Positions 43,135 through 49,478 of a stretch of DNA of 64,000 bases are shown piece by piece. The notes under the pieces are model-generated. The model saw only the letters and a list, made by a program, of their open reading frames with translations, searched no databases and was not told the DNA's origin. The DNA is taken from NCBI RefSeq assembly GCF_000144625.1, contig NC_014376.1:2294001-2358000 (forward strand), read 5' to 3'. The DNA comes from [Clostridium] saccharolyticum WM1. GTDB lineage: Bacteria; Bacillota; Clostridia; Lachnospirales; Lachnospiraceae. Position numbers and translations under genes: made by a program. Within the stretch, counting starts at the first letter, position 1. Each line of letters begins with the position of its first letter.

Positions 43135-43503
43135 TTATATGGTGTTTTTCTTAAGTTCATCTCTCAGCCTCTCTAAGGCCTTCTTTTCAAGGCGGGAAAC
43201 GTAGGATCTGGATATTCCCATAACATCCGCTATCTCTCGCTGGGTATATTCCTTTCCTCCGTGCAATCCATATCTCATTCCAATGATGGTTTTTTCATTG
43301 TCCTTCAAACAACTGTCAAATGCCTCATACAGCTCCTTAATATCCTGCTTTAAAATAATCGTTTCCAGTGTTTCCTTATTTTCCATTTCAATAACATCGA
43401 CAAGACTTACGGTCTCTCCATCCTTGTCTACGCCGATCGGTTCAAACAGAGATACCTCTTTTGAATATTTTTTATTTGCGCGAAGAAGCATTAGGATTTC
43501 ATT
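43135..43503 (-). CDS. sigK: Sigma-K, C-terminal part (separated from its start by the skin element)
   Basis: This segment encodes 121-122 residues from (N)-E-I-L-M onward: the linker with V-S-L-F-E-P-I-G-V-D-K-D-G-E, then region 4 with T-Q-R-E-I-A-D-V-M-G-I-S-R-S-Y-V-S-R-L-E-K-K-A. That is the second half of the late mother-cell sigma factor. It has no start codon of its own; the frame continues upstream to 43578 only through recombinase DNA. Excision joins it in frame to the N-terminal part at 49478-49211, giving a 210-residue protein ending in K-K-N-T-I. Confidence 0.93.
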   Translation of the reverse strand, partial: NEILMLLRANKKYSKEVSLFEPIGVDKDGETVSLVDVIEMENKETLETIILKQDIKELYEAFDSCLKDNEKTIIGMRYGLHGGKEYTQREIADVMGISRSYVSRLEKKALERLRDELKKNTI

Positions 43504-43505
43504 TG
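43494..43505 (-). other. Recombination core at the recombinase end of the skin element
   Basis: Minus strand 43503-43492 reads AATGAAATCCTA. It matches the other end (AATGGTATCCTA) in 10 of 12 positions. The AAT is codon 89 of rebuilt SigK, and the TG is part of the recombinase stop codon TGA (43501-43499). Confidence 0.8.
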
Positions 43506-45187
43506 CTATCGTCACCAAGCGGCTCCTGCTGTTCAGAATTTCCTGAGCCCAACAAATACAGATGGACATTCTGTCCATCCCATATGACCTTATCTACCAA
43601 GGTACGGACAGCCGCCCGCTTCTGCCGGACATCCATAAGGCCGATCACATTCCCAAAGGATGATAAGGCCTGCTTCAGGAGCTGGAACTCCTGGCCGGAA
43701 AGTTCATTGCTTCCCGCAGCCTGAGAAAGCGCCCATATCCGCTGTTCTGTTTTTTCCTTCTTTTTATGAAGACCACCGATTTGTTTTATGATGTATCCTT
43801 CGGCTCCGGTTCCCCCTGCTTTTCCAAGGGAGGCTACCAGACCGTTGATTTCCTCTTCCATATTCTTAAGCTGCTCCTGCAAACGGGATATATCCCATTC
43901 CAGTTCCTGCCTGCTCTCTGCCACTGCCTTGCTGTTATAACAAAGCTGCCTCTGATATTCATCATGGTCTTCCGTTATTTTTCTTATTTCCTCAAGAACC
44001 ATCTGATCCAGCATATTTCCGTTTACATTCTTCATCCCACAGCATTTCATACGGCTTTTTTCCTTCATGGTACATAAATAGGAATAAACTTGCTCCCCCT
44101 GATCATTGTACCGGCCGGATAGTTTTGGGCGCATGTAATCTCCGCAGCCGCCGCAAAAGAGGATTCCTGACAAAAGGGCCACATTGCTGCGGGGTTTCCT
44201 GTAACTTTTCGATTTATTCTGATCCAGCAGAAGCTGGACCCTGACCCAAAGGGAACCTGGGATCACGCCTTCATGCTTCCCAACCGCCACCACCCACTCT
44301 TCCATATCTTTCAACTCGTGGGTTTTTCCAGCCCTTTGAAGGGTTCGGTTATATGCTATCACTCCATGGCTCCCGTCAAAGGCTTCCTTTTCCGCAAACA
44401 GATCCACCCTTTTTTTCCGCAGATATTCATAAGACTCCTGGTCCGCAGCCGTATAGACCGGATTTGTCAATATTCCCTTTATTGCAAAACGGCTGAACTG
44501 TCGGCCGTATTTTGTTTTATAACCGTTTTGCAGCAAAAAGGTTTCCGTCTGTGTCAGAGAGCCTGTTTCAAGAAATTTTTCGTAAATCAGTTTAACCAGC
44601 TTTGCTTCTTCCGGAATCAGTTTTAGCTTATAGGCTTTTTTCACTTTTCCGTCTATGGTCACTGAAGACACACTTTCTGAGGTATAACCGGTGGGAGTAT
44701 TTCCGCCCAGCCACCTTCCGCTTTTAGACAGCTCGAGCATGTTATCCCGTATACGCTCCGCTATTGTCTCTCTTTCCAGCTGAGAAAAAACAGAAGCAAT
44801 GTACATCATAGCCCTGCCCATGGGAGAAGAGGTGTCAAACTGCTCTTTTATTGAAATAAAGGAAATTTGCAGATCGTTAAGCTCTTCAATGAGATTTGCA
44901 AAATCACCGATATTACGGCTTATCCGGTCCAGACGGTAGCACACTACCGCCGTAAATTTCTTTTTTTTCGCCTCCTGCATCATGGCTTTAAACTGTGGCC
45001 GTTCTAGATTTCCTCCGGAAAATCCCTCGTCCTCATAAATACAGGCGTTGTCGGCAAAACACTTTCCATAATGTTCAGAAATATATTGCCTGCACAGCTC
45101 GATCTGGTTGCCGATGCTCTCTCCCTTTCCAGTAAATTTTGATTTTCTTGAATAAATCGCAAACCGCTCTTTTCCGGCTTCCACCAA
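43499..45187 (-). CDS. spoIVCA: Large serine recombinase (SpoIVCA-type skin excisionase)
   Basis: 562 residues. Resolvase domain with the catalytic Ser in A-I-Y-S-R-K-S (Ser13), V-C-Y-R-L-D-R-I-S-R and the arginines of S-Q-L-E-R-E-T-I-A-E-R-I; recombinase domain through about 280; zinc ribbon C-G-G-C...L-C...K-C-C near 345-380; coiled coil at about 425-490. Such enzymes recombine short att sites by double-strand cleavage with a 2-base overlap. Start TTG (GTG 45184 also possible) after AGGAGGAAGG. The stop TGA lies inside the crossover core, so excision changes its C-terminus. The enzyme is oriented like sigK, as in Bacillus. Confidence 0.93.
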   Translation of the reverse strand: MVEAGKERFAIYSRKSKFTGKGESIGNQIELCRQYISEHYGKCFADNACIYEDEGFSGGNLERPQFKAMMQEAKKKKFTAVVCYRLDRISRNIGDFANLIEELNDLQISFISIKEQFDTSSPMGRAMMYIASVFSQLERETIAERIRDNMLELSKSGRWLGGNTPTGYTSESVSSVTIDGKVKKAYKLKLIPEEAKLVKLIYEKFLETGSLTQTETFLLQNGYKTKYGRQFSRFAIKGILTNPVYTAADQESYEYLRKKRVDLFAEKEAFDGSHGVIAYNRTLQRAGKTHELKDMEEWVVAVGKHEGVIPGSLWVRVQLLLDQNKSKSYRKPRSNVALLSGILFCGGCGDYMRPKLSGRYNDQGEQVYSYLCTMKEKSRMKCCGMKNVNGNMLDQMVLEEIRKITEDHDEYQRQLCYNSKAVAESRQELEWDISRLQEQLKNMEEEINGLVASLGKAGGTGAEGYIIKQIGGLHKKKEKTEQRIWALSQAAGSNELSGQEFQLLKQALSSFGNVIGLMDVRQKRAAVRTLVDKVIWDGQNVHLYLLGSGNSEQQEPLGDDSK

Positions 45188-45239
45188 ATCCTTCCTCCTA
45201 ATTAAGACAAAATGCTGATCCCTTTATTCCCCAACATAG

Positions 45240-45268
45240 AGGACATGGGAAACATCATACATTATAAT
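45240..45268 (+). promoter_or_regulatory. Possible promoter of the small divergent gene
   Basis: AGGACA (45240-45245), 17 bases, TATAAT (45263-45268). A start near 45275 would favour the internal ATG at 45293 for the small gene. Confidence 0.35.
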
Positions 45269-45292
45269 AAGAGTATATATCAGGTCCTTGGA

Positions 45293-45454
45293 ATGAATAT
45301 GATCGTACATCAACCAAAAACCGAAGAAGGCAGGAAAGAATTAGAAAAAAAAGCCGCCTGCCTCCATAGCCATGCCGTCCTTCAATATTTACAGCAGCTT
45401 TCCTGCCCTACGGATCAAAAACAGGCTCTTATAGAGGAGCTTCACACAAGCTGA
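45293..45454 (+). CDS. Small uncharacterised protein divergent from the recombinase
   Basis: 53 residues from ATG 45293; an 80-residue form from ATG 45212 is also open but begins before the predicted promoter start. The sequence is hydrophilic with a compact look: V-H-Q-P-K-T-E-E-G-R-K-E-L, then H-S-H-A-V-L-Q-Y-L-Q-Q-L-S-C-P-T-D-Q-K-Q-A-L. It is the only gene of the element on this strand, and its 3' end overlaps the large-subunit gene by 13 bases. I do not recognise a family with certainty. The position beside the recombinase suggests a directionality or accessory factor, which is speculation. Confidence 0.5.
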   Translation: MNMIVHQPKTEEGRKELEKKAACLHSHAVLQYLQQLSCPTDQKQALIEELHTS

Positions 45455-46818
45455 ATTGTATTCCTATGCTTCCCGCCGGAAAAAACATGTGTGGCACAGG
45501 ATACGCAGGGGTCAAAGGAACGTATGATCCTTCCGATTTCCACAGGTGCTTCCAGTTGATTGACAGGCGCTCCTATGAGTGCCTGCTCTCCGGTTCCCTT
45601 CATCCCGTTTGATTGGGTTGATAAATTCCATGCAGACGGCGTTATGATCTGATAAAAAGCGATTGTCCTGTTTTCAATATAGAGCCAGTGGCCAAGAGCT
45701 CCCCGTGTCGTATCTACCAGTCCCTTTCCCGATGATTGCAATGGAATCTCATACTCCTCCTGCATAGGCACTCCGGGAATCAGGTTGTCGATGAGCGTTT
45801 GCATGATTTCCACAATCTTTTTGGCTTCCAACACTCTCGCAATGGTCCGGTCCATGGCTGATATCCCGTTTCCATACTCGCCGGAAAGCCACTGCCTTGC
45901 AAGTGGTCCTACCTCGTAAGGGATATTGTCATATCTCGGCGCCTTAACCCAGGAATATGCCTGGGGTTTGTTTCTGTCAGGTTCATCATTTTCATTAAAC
46001 CAGGCATACTCATCTTCCTGAGACAGGAGGCCAGGATCAAAGGAGCTGGTTTTTCCTTGTGAGTAAACAAGTGGATTCACATAGAGGGTTCCTAAATCCT
46101 TATAATTGTTAAAACACCCGTAACTCAACAGGTTTCCATAGCCTCCCCCCATATGGTAATACTCCGGGTAATAAGTACCTATGGTGTACACATCGGGGAT
46201 CATCTTTTCTGTAATAAACTGCCCTATGCCATATAGAATGGATTTTATGCTGATGATCTTATCTGCCGAAATGGGTGATGTGATTCCTCCGATAAATACT
46301 CCGTGGTTATGAGGTGCTTTTCCTCCCAGGATGGCTAACATCTGATGGGAATTCCGGCTGAACTCCAGGGAATCAAAGTAATCCTTTACCATTTTATCAT
46401 TAATATCCTTGGGAAGCCTGAAATCATCATGCTCCCTTTTAAACAGGGGATAGTCTTCCGGAAGCTTTACATAGTCCGGAAGGGTAAGCTGATAAAAATG
46501 CCTTAAGTGGTTTTGCAGAAATTCACAAGCATGAAGGAGATCTCTGAGATACCTTCCCTGCTCAGAAGGAACAATGTTCAGTGCTTCTTCCAGGGCAAGC
46601 GCTGAAGCCATGGAATGAGCGGTGGAACATATCCCGCAAATGCGCTGTGTAAAATAGACCGCATCAAACGGGCTTCTTCCCTGGAGCATTTTTTCAAATC
46701 CCCGAAACATCATACCTTTCGTTCTCGCATCCACAATGGATTGGTTCTCAATGTCTGCATCAATTTCCATGTATCCATTAATACGGGTAATGGGATTTAT
46801 GGTTACTCTTTCAGCCAT
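45442..46818 (-). CDS. [NiFe]-hydrogenase large (catalytic) subunit
   Basis: 458 residues. The N-terminal I-N-P-I-T-R-I-N-G-Y-M-E-I-D is the usual beginning of group 1-like large subunits. L1 nickel motif R-I-C-G-I-C-S-T-A-H and L2 motif D-P-C-V-S-C-A-T-H supply the four cysteine ligands. The tail V-F-S-G-G-K-H-R-N-T-I-Q-L-V after the last His is the peptide removed by the maturation protease, so the subunit is a complete precursor. Start ATG 46818 after GAGGAGTAGG; the longer frame to 46890 overlaps the small-subunit gene. The small-subunit stop is two bases upstream. Confidence 0.95.
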   Translation of the reverse strand: MAERVTINPITRINGYMEIDADIENQSIVDARTKGMMFRGFEKMLQGRSPFDAVYFTQRICGICSTAHSMASALALEEALNIVPSEQGRYLRDLLHACEFLQNHLRHFYQLTLPDYVKLPEDYPLFKREHDDFRLPKDINDKMVKDYFDSLEFSRNSHQMLAILGGKAPHNHGVFIGGITSPISADKIISIKSILYGIGQFITEKMIPDVYTIGTYYPEYYHMGGGYGNLLSYGCFNNYKDLGTLYVNPLVYSQGKTSSFDPGLLSQEDEYAWFNENDEPDRNKPQAYSWVKAPRYDNIPYEVGPLARQWLSGEYGNGISAMDRTIARVLEAKKIVEIMQTLIDNLIPGVPMQEEYEIPLQSSGKGLVDTTRGALGHWLYIENRTIAFYQIITPSAWNLSTQSNGMKGTGEQALIGAPVNQLEAPVEIGRIIRSFDPCVSCATHVFSGGKHRNTIQLV

Positions 46819-46820
46819 GC

Positions 46821-47723
46821 CTACTCCTCTCTCATGGTATCGTAAATAATAAACGGCTCCATGGCATCTGGAAATCCGAACTGGGCACATCCAATACAGG
46901 GAGAATCATCACCAACCGGCCAGTTGACATGCCCGTTCCACTGGCGTATGGGGCAATCGATCTGAGTGACCGGCCCTTTACAGCCCATCATGAACATACA
47001 GGTTTCTTCCCCAAGGGAAGAGGCAAATATACCATTGTCGTAATAAGACCTCCTGGGGCATCTGTCATGTATGGTGGTACTGTAAAACATCAGAGGGCGG
47101 TCCCTGCTGTCAAGAGGGGGCTCTCCATACAATATCAGATAGGCCAGAGTCCCCATAAACCAGTCCGGATGACAGGGACATCCTGTCAGCTTGATCACCT
47201 TCCGCCCTAATACCTCCTGAATCCCCACACATTGTGTAGGGTTGGGCCTGGCTGCAGACACTCCCCCGTGAGAAGCGCAGGCTCCCACAGCAATCACATG
47301 GGCTGCACGTTCTCCCAGTCTTGTAATGGCTTCCAATCCCGTAATTTCCCTGCCGTTATGCCTGCCTACGGTCTGGTAGGAACCGTTGTCTTTTAATGAT
47401 ACCGCGCCTTCCGCGGCCAGGATATAATCGCTGCCTATGATGCCAAACAACTGGTCCATGGCATCATTTCCTTCAGAAGCTACGAGGGTGTTGCTGTAAA
47501 TGAAATTAGTCATTTGAGTCAACAGATACTGAAAGTCCGGATTTTGGCCATCAAGAAGGGAAATGGTATTACCTGTACATCCGTTTAATTCAAGCCAGAC
47601 CAGGTTCTGCTTTGGCCGTACATGATTGGCAATATCGTTCTTTACCCTGTTCACAAGGCTTTCCGTTGTTTTTAACTTACTTTCCTGATAAGGACATTTA
47701 AAGCTTTCACAACCCAAATTCAT
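46821..47723 (-). CDS. [NiFe]-hydrogenase small (iron-sulfur) subunit, no Tat signal
   Basis: About 300 residues from ATG 47723 (8 bases after the upstream stop). There is no twin-arginine signal, so the enzyme should be cytoplasmic. Proximal-cluster region L-N-G-C-T-G-N has Asn where most relatives have the second Cys of CxxC; V-G-A-C-A-S-H-G-G and L-T-G-C-P-C-H-P-D are present. The distal and medial sites are I-H-D-R-C-P, E-E-T-C-M-F-M-M-G-C-K-G-P, D-C-P-I-R-Q-W-N and D-S-P-C-I-G-C. No membrane anchor is present. The frame extends to 47858 but without a ribosome-binding site. Confidence 0.93.
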   Translation of the reverse strand: MNLGCESFKCPYQESKLKTTESLVNRVKNDIANHVRPKQNLVWLELNGCTGNTISLLDGQNPDFQYLLTQMTNFIYSNTLVASEGNDAMDQLFGIIGSDYILAAEGAVSLKDNGSYQTVGRHNGREITGLEAITRLGERAAHVIAVGACASHGGVSAARPNPTQCVGIQEVLGRKVIKLTGCPCHPDWFMGTLAYLILYGEPPLDSRDRPLMFYSTTIHDRCPRRSYYDNGIFASSLGEETCMFMMGCKGPVTQIDCPIRQWNGHVNWPVGDDSPCIGCAQFGFPDAMEPFIIYDTMREE

Positions 47724-47731
47724 CACCAGCT

Positions 47732-48208
47732 TTACACTAAAGTCAGATAGCCTACTACCGGCAATCTGGTTAAGACCATTGCTCCCGGATGACAGGTTTG
47801 AAATTCGTAGGTTAAATCTCTTCCGGGAAAAAGGCCGAAATGACTGTCCCCCATCCAAACGGAATTATTTGTAACATCATACACCACTCCGTTTACCGCA
47901 ACATAAGCAGGAGCCCCGTTCTTGCCGTCATATTGGGATAATTCATTCATAGTAAAGTATCTTGGGGGGTTGTTTTCTTCCTGGGTCTGACTTGCATAGA
48001 CGGCCTCATAGGGATTTTGGATTTCATCCATACTTAGCTGGTTTGACTGGGTGAAATACTTGATGTGGCTTTCCAGCATGACTACTTCACTGCTTAAATG
48101 ATCCAATACTGCTCCGCTGTCATGCTGACTGGAATAGAGCTTTTCAACATCTTCGTTTATTTGTCTTATGCTGTTTCCTACATAATCTAAAAACAAATTT
48201 AATTCCAT
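47732..48208 (-). CDS. Cytochrome-b5-like haem-binding domain protein
   Basis: 158 residues. Residues 1-75 are helical and charged; from about 83 a cytochrome-b5/steroid-binding-like fold follows: R-Y-F-T-M-N-E-L-S-Q-Y-D-G, A-Y-V-A-V-N-G-V-V-Y-D-V-T and the two candidate haem histidines in D-S-H-F-G-L and T-C-H-P-G-A. No signal peptide or anchor. Its place directly before the hydrogenase subunits suggests that it is the electron partner or a third subunit. Family identity is by pattern; haem binding is inferred. Confidence 0.8.
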   Translation of the reverse strand: MELNLFLDYVGNSIRQINEDVEKLYSSQHDSGAVLDHLSSEVVMLESHIKYFTQSNQLSMDEIQNPYEAVYASQTQEENNPPRYFTMNELSQYDGKNGAPAYVAVNGVVYDVTNNSVWMGDSHFGLFPGRDLTYEFQTCHPGAMVLTRLPVVGYLTLV

Positions 48209-48267
48209 ATATAACCTCCAAAATAATCAGAATTGTTGATATGCTGTACCGATGGTATAAGCCTCCC

Positions 48268-48525
48268 TTATTGAAATATTTCCCCATCAATTTCATCTAT
48301 CACCGCAGTAAGAGGCTCTATTTCCTGTCTTTGTACCTGAATGTTTGTCCAGTCCCCTACAAGGGAATTTTTTCGTTCAGTAAAATATTCCCGAATACTG
48401 GATTCACTTATATGACTGTGTGTATGTACCGTAATTGTCAGCTTTAAGATCTTTGCAATGGCGTTTTCATTGCATATATCAATGACTGACTCATATAAAT
48501 TCTGGTTCAAGAAAGTGTCATGCAT
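48268..48525 (-). CDS. HypA-like mini protein (hydrogenase nickel-chaperone N-domain)
   Basis: 85 residues. It starts M-H-D, matching the M-H-E nickel-binding start of HypA, and continues L-K-L-T-I-T-V-H-T-H-S-H-I-S-E-S-S-I-R-E-Y-F, like the HypA beta-sheet and helix. The four-cysteine zinc domain of HypA is absent, and full-length HypA has about 115 residues. It overlaps the protease gene by 8 bases. It may deliver nickel to this one hydrogenase or be a structural subunit derived from HypA. Confidence 0.55.
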   Translation of the reverse strand: MHDTFLNQNLYESVIDICNENAIAKILKLTITVHTHSHISESSIREYFTERKNSLVGDWTNIQVQRQEIEPLTAVIDEIDGEIFQ

Positions 48526-48979
48526 GAATGGTTTCCTCCCATAGGATTTTTTGAATTACATTTTCAATTTCCCTGCAGATTTGGGGCAGCTTATGATTCA
48601 GAACTGCACTGAGTTCATAACCGATACCGATTTCGGATATTTCAATTCCGATGAGATAGCCCTGAAATTGGACTCCGTACAGCTTCATGAGCTCTACCAT
48701 GCTCATATCATGCTGCATGGAAAACAAGGAAGGCTGCGAAATTACATCTTTAAGGCTGAAAAGATGAACTTTTCCAGGTTCTTCTCTTGGGGAAAGTGCG
48801 TCAAGTATCAATATAAAATCATCCTCATCCAGTAAATAAAAACAGTGTTGAAAATCGGTTTCTCCAATGATTACATGGACATCCTGTTGGGTCAGCCGGT
48901 CTTCCAGCATTTCGGCAGCTTTAATTGCTATAGCGTCATCCTTCATAAACCGGTTGCCGATAGCAACTAACTTCACCAT
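48518..48979 (-). CDS. Hydrogenase maturation protease (HyaD/HybD family)
   Basis: 153 residues. The N-terminal A-I-G-N-R-F-M-K-D-D-A-I matches the G-x-G-N-x-x-x-x-D-D family motif, with the nickel-sensing acid there, a second acid in I-L-D-A-L-S-P and His in S-M-Q-H-D-M-S. It cleaves the C-terminal peptide of the large subunit after nickel insertion. First gene of the hydrogenase operon; start after GGAAGGAGG. HypBCDEF are not in the element and must be encoded elsewhere. Confidence 0.9.
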   Translation of the reverse strand: MVKLVAIGNRFMKDDAIAIKAAEMLEDRLTQQDVHVIIGETDFQHCFYLLDEDDFILILDALSPREEPGKVHLFSLKDVISQPSLFSMQHDMSMVELMKLYGVQFQGYLIGIEISEIGIGYELSAVLNHKLPQICREIENVIQKILWEETIHA

Positions 48980-49014
48980 ATTCTTGCCTCCTTCCCTAAA
49001 TTTGTCATTTATCC

Positions 49015-49043
49015 ATATATATGTTGGACATAGTCAAATATTC
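49015..49043 (-). promoter_or_regulatory. Promoter region of the hydrogenase operon, sigma-E-like
   Basis: Minus strand GAATATT (49043-49037), 13 bases, CATATATAT (49023-49015). The first box fits the Bacillus sigma-E -35 (KMATATT) exactly and the second is close to CATACA-N-T. An overlapping sigma-A reading, TTGACT (49037-49032) with 17 bases to GGATAA (49014-49009), has a poorer -10. The boxes are 36 bases before the protease start. Confidence 0.4.
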
Positions 49044-49133
49044 TTTACCGGAACAAGATCAGAGTAAAAATCACAGTGTTTTTTCTTGCCAAAGGGACAG
49101 CCTGGTAAACATAAGAAAAAACAGCTAGTCAAA

Positions 49134-49170
49134 ACCGGTGTATGCCTGTTATATCAAGGCATACACCGGT
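49134..49170 (-). terminator. Hairpin just inside the sigK N-part end of the skin element
   Basis: Perfect 14-base arms ACCGGTGTATGCCT (49134-49147) and AGGCATACACCGGT (49157-49170). On the minus strand TTTT follows. It would stop transcripts that run through the truncated sigK into the hydrogenase operon, and is removed with the element. Confidence 0.65.
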
Positions 49171-49196
49171 TCCCTAATTTCTATGGTATGGAGCCG

Positions 49197-49478
49197 TCAT
49201 GATAGGATACCATTCTCCACACATTTGGCCGCATAAGTGGCCAGCCTGGAGCCTCTGTCCGGATGAAAGGTATTAACGGCTTTGATTAGTCCTATGGTCC
49301 CTACGGAAAGAAGGTCTTCCATATCATAATCCGTATTCTGATACTTTTTTGCCACATGTGCCACCAGGCGCATATTCCGCTCGATGAGTGTGGCTCTCGC
49401 CTCCCGATCCCCTTCCTGGTATCGTTCCAGACACTCTCGTTCTTCTCGCGCAGTTAAAGGTTTGGGAAAAGTCTTCAA
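49197..49478 (-). CDS. sigK: Sigma-K, N-terminal part (interrupted)
   Basis: 93 residues as it stands; 89 belong to SigK. Region 1.2/2 motifs are E-R-N-M-R-L-V-A-H-V-A-K-K-Y, D-M-E-D-L-L-S-V-G-T-I-G-L-I-K-A-V and R-L-A-T-Y-A-A-K-C-V-E-N, after which the reading runs into G-I-L-S and a stop from the element. The start is TTG 49478, six bases after AAGGTGG. The protein begins M-K-T-F-P-K-P-L-T, aligned with mature sigma-K, so no inhibitory pro-sequence is encoded, as in Clostridioides difficile. An in-frame TAA 27 bases upstream excludes a longer form. Confidence 0.93.
   Translation of the reverse strand: MKTFPKPLTAREERECLERYQEGDREARATLIERNMRLVAHVAKKYQNTDYDMEDLLSVGTIGLIKAVNTFHPDRGSRLATYAAKCVENGILS
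49203..49214 (-). other. Recombination core at the hydrogenase end of the skin element
   Basis: Minus strand 49214-49203 reads AATGGTATCCTA, within the last codons of the sigK N-part; an in-frame stop follows at 49199-49197. See the matching core at the recombinase end. Confidence 0.8.

Follow-up and report, generated by a model that had tools for sequence, protein, structure and literature searches.

Skin elements are mostly regarded as defective prophages that time SigK; that of Bacillus subtilis is a defective prophage and, to our knowledge, carries no hydrogenase. In heterocyst-forming cyanobacteria, hupL itself is interrupted by a developmentally excised element. Here we analyse a stretch of 64,000 nucleotides from [Clostridium] saccharolyticum WM1 (NC_014376.1, positions 2,294,001 to 2,358,000; herein referred to as the window), in which sigK is split by a 5.7-kilobase (kb) element, approximately 43500–49214, whose cargo is a [NiFe]-hydrogenase operon. 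As in the cyanobacteria, a hydrogenase gene meets developmental DNA excision; there, however, hupL is what the element interrupts, whereas here the hydrogenase is what it carries. Taking our explanation as a whole, we consider it fairly probable that this is a sigK element with a mother-cell hydrogenase operon behind a sigma-E-type promoter, expressible on the excised circle.

Several described systems are close to this locus (here and below, the cited accounts are used in excerpt). The sigK-intervening skin of B. subtilis, 48 kb long and removed in the mother cell by a serine recombinase (PMC3416734), is about eight times larger than the present element. The Clostridioides difficile element (skinCd), like the one described here, splits sigK, has a large serine recombinase and rebuilds sigK on excision; its directionality factor, CD1234, has 53 residues and is under sigma-E and SpoIIID control (PMC5025042, PMC10747680), and a gene of that size lies in our element. 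The excerpted accounts describe skinCd as prophage-like, whereas the present 5.7-kb element, in which no phage gene was seen, holds a metabolic operon. The elements yin (yabG, Clostridium botulinum), gin (gerE, Bacillus cereus) and SP-beta (spsM) excise from sporulation genes other than sigK (PMC10747680, PMC5595907, PMC4191935), with no hydrogenase mentioned in these excerpts; gin is described as non-prophage and is hence nearest in kind to the element here. We found no paper on hydrogenase cargo in a sigK element in the open-licence literature.

Cargo and layout of the sigK element

The original prediction, made from the letters of the window, held that a hydrogenase operon is the cargo of a sigK-intervening element, and the genes, their motifs and the split sigK all bear this out. 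The sigK halves, region 2 (49197–49478) and region 4 (43135–43503), each have NCBIfam SigK models as their best match; sigK is interrupted after CVEN (49211–49214) and resumes at 43503. The element contains hycI, a HypA-like gene, a cytochrome-b5 gene, hupS and hupL, all on the minus strand in the same orientation as sigK, together with a 53-residue gene on the opposite strand and a large serine recombinase. Among 25 genomes of the genus (Lacrimispora), a full-length hupL of at least 73% identity is present in 17, and in all 17 the recombinase adjoins it, a recurrence that is more than chance. The features of the locus are as follows (window coordinates; G and L numbers below denote genomes and loci).

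49215..49478, minus strand: sigK 5' part (region 2), TTG start; its open frame reaches a stop at 49197, within the element
49211..49214, minus strand: attachment (att) core AATG, attL, left end of the element; contigs of G007 break at the identical core
49133..49171, minus strand: long hairpin directly past the sigK 5' part (fold -33.8 kcal/mol, z -4.1)
49016..49043, minus strand: sigma-E-type promoter of the cargo operon, GAATATT-N13-CATATATA (alignment and pattern match)
48518..48979, minus strand: hycI-type hydrogenase maturation protease (PF01750, TIGR00072)
48268..48525, minus strand: HypA-like protein of 85 residues, N-terminal part only (partial HypA profile match, below cut-off)
47732..48208, minus strand: cytochrome-b5-like protein (PF00173; homologues; paired histidines HF..CH)
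46821..47723, minus strand: hupS, [NiFe]-hydrogenase small subunit (PF01058 and PF14720; TIGR00391 above cut-off)
45442..46818, minus strand: hupL, [NiFe]-hydrogenase large subunit (PF00374; RICGIC, DPCVSCATH, 14-residue tail)
45293..45454, plus strand: 53-residue gene, family unassigned, conserved in sigK elements
43499..45187, minus strand: large serine recombinase (PF00239, PF07508, PF13408; phrog_95 integrase)
43500..43503, minus strand: attR core AATG, right end of the element
43135..43503, minus strand: sigK 3' part (region 4), best matched by NCBIfam SigK models

All five genes of the predicted operon are present, as are both nickel motifs and the C-terminal tail of hupL and a protease of its own (hycI); the HypA-like product, however, is short, matches its profile only in part and has no zinc-type cysteine motif in its sequence. 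The "one tiny gene" of the same prediction also exists, but is best read as a 53-residue frame from 45293 because relatives align only from there. This gene has no match in Pfam or PHROG, is conserved in the elements of the genus, is matched by tblastn in 6 of 17 stretches from other genera, and is a candidate recombination directionality factor. In the gap that separates it from the recombinase (45188–45292), a block TGTATG..TGTCC.GTATGT (ACATAC..CATACA on the other strand) is kept in the alignment, possibly as a sigma-E promoter or SpoIIID site of the 53-residue gene. The long hairpin, the stem of which is conserved in the alignment with G017, G006, G019, G020 and G005, may insulate the operon from the sigK promoter; a terminator role was dropped, as the hairpin is not in the terminator scan list. 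Prophage-like content was not found, the sole phage-type (integrase) matches falling on the recombinase and the remaining genes being the hydrogenase set, cytochrome b5 and the small gene without a family match. The genome is one contig of 4,662,871 base pairs (bp), in which a profile search with PF00374 matches only the element locus.

The gene hupL encodes the two CxxC motifs that bind nickel and the cleavable tail of a [NiFe] group 1-like large subunit; its nearest solved chain is 5jsu_B, and among solved structures the enzyme is closest to NiFeSe and NiFe hydrogenases of sulfate reducers. No twin-arginine translocation (Tat) motif was found in hupS, which argues for a cytoplasmic enzyme. 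The proximal cluster of hupS reads CTGN, with Asn replacing the second cysteine of CTGC, and the set of four cysteines is thus incomplete; C[TS]GN occurs in 23 of the 25 loci scanned, including those of C. punense and C. tunisiense, the other two giving no match to the search pattern. The cytochrome-b5-like protein is a probable heme-binding partner. Besides hycI in the element, the genome encodes hypB and, elsewhere, hypF, hypC, hypD and hypE, so that maturation is plausible with this set (a full HypA was not searched for). The hypF-C-D-E cluster (L073, 7998–12606) stands alone, beside an Amidase_3 gene.

The [NiFe] large subunit of C. beijerinckii (RICGICSTAH, DPCxSCATH) has the same motifs as hupL here. 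The C. beijerinckii cluster is expressed most strongly in stationary phase (PMC6362236), and expression of C. acetobutylicum mbhSL extends through that phase (PMC2530871); this analogy would support growth phase only. Neither cluster is described in these excerpts as lying in sigK, and C. acetobutylicum sigK is a single gene.

The split sigK and predicted excision at the core

The joined SigK scores 289.8 bits against PRK05803, above the cut-off of 252, and 288.3 bits against the stricter TIGR02846, just below the cut-off of 298.65. Crossover at AATG yields one invariant SigK junction, AAKCVENEILMLLRAN, in 19 of 19 genomes, with the frame intact and typically 209 residues long, despite 5' halves that, in the integrated state, end in NG, ND, NA or NE. 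We place the crossover at AATG rather than ATCCTA because the former gives ENEILM in all 19 (ATCCTA would give ENGILM in the genome of WM1), marks the best centre of symmetry for the circle junction in 17 of 19 (another centre is preferred in two) and coincides with the break point in G007. A further shared word, CAAATG, was ruled out since the frames differ. The recombinase stop codon TGA overlaps the core (43499–43503; left core 49211–49214); in a circle from WM1 it would become TGG, giving an end 12 residues longer, and elements with AATGA at the left side would keep the stop in the circle.

Assembly breaks in two drafts suggest that the element leaves the chromosome. Four contig ends in G007 stop exactly at AATGA: the sigK 5' contig ends GAGAATGA, the sigK 3' contig starts AATGAGATCC, and the element contig starts AATGATATAC and ends GCAAATGA. 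In the metagenome bin G016 one end, that of the element contig, stops likewise at AATGA, with a 99-bp overlap with the contig continuing into sigK, as if a second continuation were present. Assemblies are broken by alternative joins, not by a 5-bp word; a mixture of integrated and excised DNA would be the simplest cause of the breaks in G007, and a second copy of the element elsewhere could also account for them. The junctions predicted in G007 after excision are GAGAATGAGATCC for the empty site and GCAAATGATATAC for the circle.

Neither an attB nor an attP joined form was present in the sequences examined, which counts against excision, and viral contigs and plasmids contained no circular or mobile form (phage records gave three distant hydrogenases, at 27–28% identity, with no relation to sigK). 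An element that is a fossil, no longer excising, in a genus where sigK is a pseudogene would agree with the missing joined form. We nevertheless regard this as very improbable: frame and junction are intact in 19 of 19, the sigK halves are 90–98% identical to those of WM1 across the genus where matched, the recombinase has a ratio of nonsynonymous to synonymous substitution rates (dN/dS) of 0.046–0.124 (10 pairs), and contigs break at the core.

The predicted promoter of the cargo operon

The original prediction supposed that every vegetative cell would contain the enzyme. Alignment within the clade of WM1, however, shows a single conserved block upstream of hycI, AAAGAATATTT...CATATATAT, and its sigma-E-type character predicts expression in the mother cell instead. 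Template promoters were read from three sporulation genes in the genus, namely spoIVA (GAATAAT-N13-CATATAGT; 24-row alignment), spoIIIAA (TCATAAT-N13-CATATATT; 18 of 24 rows, the wrong start having been taken in six) and spoIIID (TCATACT-N14-CATAAGTA; 25 rows). We built a sigma-E pattern on spoIVA and spoIIIAA, widening its final -10 position to allow either A or T. On both strands of 24 genus loci (391,204 bp) it matches 21 times, compared with 0.7 times in shuffled DNA; 19 of the 21 are the cargo promoter, at the expected place in 19 of 24 elements, and the other two lie elsewhere in opposite orientation (G019, G020). The cargo site follows the layout of these genus promoters, which have ATA in the -35 region, CATA in the -10 region and a spacing of 13–14 bp. 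Promoters of sigma-E and of sigma-K in C. difficile have a common -10 region but differ at -35 (ATA vs AC); the genes under sigma-E control there include an iron hydrogenase and the skin gene CD1234 (PMC3789822). Given this -35 distinction and the genus templates, sigma-E is the best reading of the cargo site and would govern the operon. A strict B. subtilis-like sigma-E pattern has no match in the window because the genus uses CATATA, not CATACA, in such promoters.

Several observations weigh against this reading. A full match is missing from 5 of 24 elements (G018 has GTATATT; G002, G022, G023 and G001 have none), the pattern was drawn up with the cargo motif already in view, and the site in WM1 needs the widened -10 position. 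By weight matrix this site ranks third in the window, where 1.4 equal or better sites are expected by chance, and the distant hypF-C-D-E cluster of the same genome has only a loose AAATAAA-N13-CATAGGAT upstream. Five elements (G002, G010, G011, G022 and G023) lack the hydrogenase, which is hence dispensable; moreover, hupL of G020 (L045) has a mid-protein TGA and hupS of G004 (L048) has frameshifts, reflecting either decay or sequencing error (selenocysteine was rejected for the TGA, which replaces a tryptophan codon in mid-protein). Outside the genus, 6 of 46 related operons match loosely (background 12 of 572) and 3 of 46 strictly (2 of 572), so that sigma-E control is not general for this hydrogenase. 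These 46 loci include five named ones, with L007 and L224 being the same record, and are stretches of 7–19 kb, some ended by contig edges. Good-looking sites in C. punense and C. tunisiense had suggested sigma-E control as an ancestral hydrogenase trait, but this wider check did not support it as a general one.

G010 and G011, whose elements have no hydrogenase, also show a sigma-E-type site, in front of the cytochrome-b5 gene. It is conceivable that sigK elements recruit sigma-E promoters for their excision genes, the job of the promoter being read-through into the recombinase with little gain for the hydrogenase. The operon and recombinase are collinear, the terminator scan lists nothing between hupL and the recombinase on that strand, and in G010 and G011 the promoter stands before a cytochrome-b5 gene and the recombinase, all of which would suit such a role. 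However, hupL and the recombinase are separated by a 250-bp gap with an opposite gene, and purifying selection on hupL and hupS is as strong as on the flanking purH-like gene; we hold this explanation to be quite improbable. Our preferred reading remains a promoter that serves the hydrogenase operon.

Distribution, selection and possible role

Both sigK halves flank the hupL element in 14 of the 17 carriers, contigs ending in the other three (G007, G014, G016), and in relatives the element interrupts sigK between the regions in one orientation. A contiguous sigK occurs in none of the 25 genus genomes (one of them, the 67% complete G009, gives no sigK match at all, and only the 5' half is matched in G001 and G015), nor does the operon stand beside an uninterrupted sigK in any of them. 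The five hydrogenase-less elements retain the recombinase, the 53-residue gene and the cytochrome-b5 gene; those of G010 and G011 (L065, L066) are minimal, with 2.7 kb between the sigK halves and the sigma-E-type promoter kept, and the cytochrome-b5 protein may have a role of its own. In recombinase and purH-like gene trees the hydrogenase-less genomes fall in two places among carriers, with mixed support, so that a hydrogenase present early and lost at least twice is a simpler account than one gained three times. The element of G018 measures 11.5 kb (L072, 5595–17092) and holds the hydrogenase, hypF, hypC, hypD, hypE and a GH27-type gene, the last being present in several Lacrimispora elements; in the hupL tree, G018 groups with copies found beyond the genus (support 84), making transfer into or out of the element possible. 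A second, distantly similar hydrogenase-like large subunit (E ~1e-8 to 1e-10; L074) occurs in most members of the genus, in several of them approximately 5 kb from hypD; WM1 is without it.

Both hydrogenase subunits are under purifying selection, as strong as that on the purH-like neighbour: dN/dS is 0.024–0.078 for hupL (10 pairs) and 0.053–0.095 for hupS (nine pairs; 0.152 in the pair with the frameshifted G004), and 0.032–0.132 for the flanking gene. The cytochrome-b5 gene is looser, at 0.08–0.26 (finite values, eight hydrogenase-element pairs), with 0.49 in one pair of very low synonymous rate and 0.99 for G022 vs G023, which differ in a repeat-rich linker.

Beyond the genus, hupL relatives are rare, occurring in 3 of 396 other genomes of the family sample (E <= 1e-60), 17 of 391 of the order sample and 19 of 390 of the class sample (both E <= 1e-100). 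None of the 46 outside loci lies in a recognisable sigK element. With one exception, the stretches examined show neither half of sigK next to the operon nor a neighbouring recombinase of >40% identity; in the exception, L277 (class member G926), sigK is contiguous and some 5 kb away from the hydrogenase, which is a different, Tat-exported one of 37% identity. A recombinase match in L006 is at 20%. The cytochrome-b5 gene adjoins most of these operons, which indicates that it came with the hydrogenase. The recombinase is matched in 30 of 397 family genomes (E <= 1e-90), and of 17 wider stretches around it in other genera, 8 have both sigK halves. Matches to hupL, hupS and cytochrome b5 are absent from all 17 stretches. 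The sigK cargo of other Lachnospiraceae genera consists instead of AAA_14/DUF4143 genes, a histidine kinase with a response regulator, phosphotransferase system and GH1 genes, an ATP-binding cassette (ABC) transporter with a response regulator, or an Opp transporter (L186, L187, L191, L195, L198).

Such unrelated cargo, like the GH27-type gene within the genus, would be expected if a vegetative or stationary-phase uptake hydrogenase were merely riding in the sigK element as a safe chromosomal site, with the mother cell giving the genes up. The needed hyp genes lie elsewhere in the genome and the sigma-E motif is missing from most relatives' operons outside sigK, which also fits a rider; the conserved upstream block is, however, a sigma-E-type promoter, and a sigma-70 scan upstream of the operon gives just a weak 9-of-12 site overlapping the ribosome-binding region. 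We consider a mere rider unlikely.

We instead favour the mother-cell operon introduced above, for which we hypothesize the following course. Sigma-E would switch on the hydrogenase operon in the sporulating mother cell and also trigger excision through the 53-residue protein acting as directionality factor, whereupon recombination at AATG would rebuild sigK and the forespore would keep the integrated copy. The original prediction had the mother cell losing the genes; since the promoter lies within the element, the circle would keep promoter and operon and stay expressible without being inherited, and the mother cell would stop transmitting the genes rather than lose them. Electrons would pass between the cytoplasmic hydrogenase and H2, the cytochrome-b5 protein acting as its partner. 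Least certain is the proposed benefit, namely that H2-linked electron exchange may help the non-growing mother cell to hold its redox balance.

The locus thus presents a conserved metabolic enzyme in a sigK element with an apparent mother-cell promoter, among family neighbours with other cargo. We tentatively suggest, at somewhat less than even confidence, that the sigK element is a vehicle for terminal-cell genes, in that the hydrogenase would be made only in the mother cell, partly from a non-inherited circle, and would lie silent in the germ line within an interrupted sigK, and that Lachnospiraceae sigK elements are small cargo islands of non-phage type, with changing contents but a constant recombinase, 53-residue gene and split site. 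The 2.7-kb elements of G010 and G011 offer very small natural excision units for study. Two questions follow, both directly open to experiment in laboratory strains of this harmless genus: is hydrogen something that the mother cell lives on or something that it gets rid of, and do developmental DNA elements serve to store genes for a cell without descendants?

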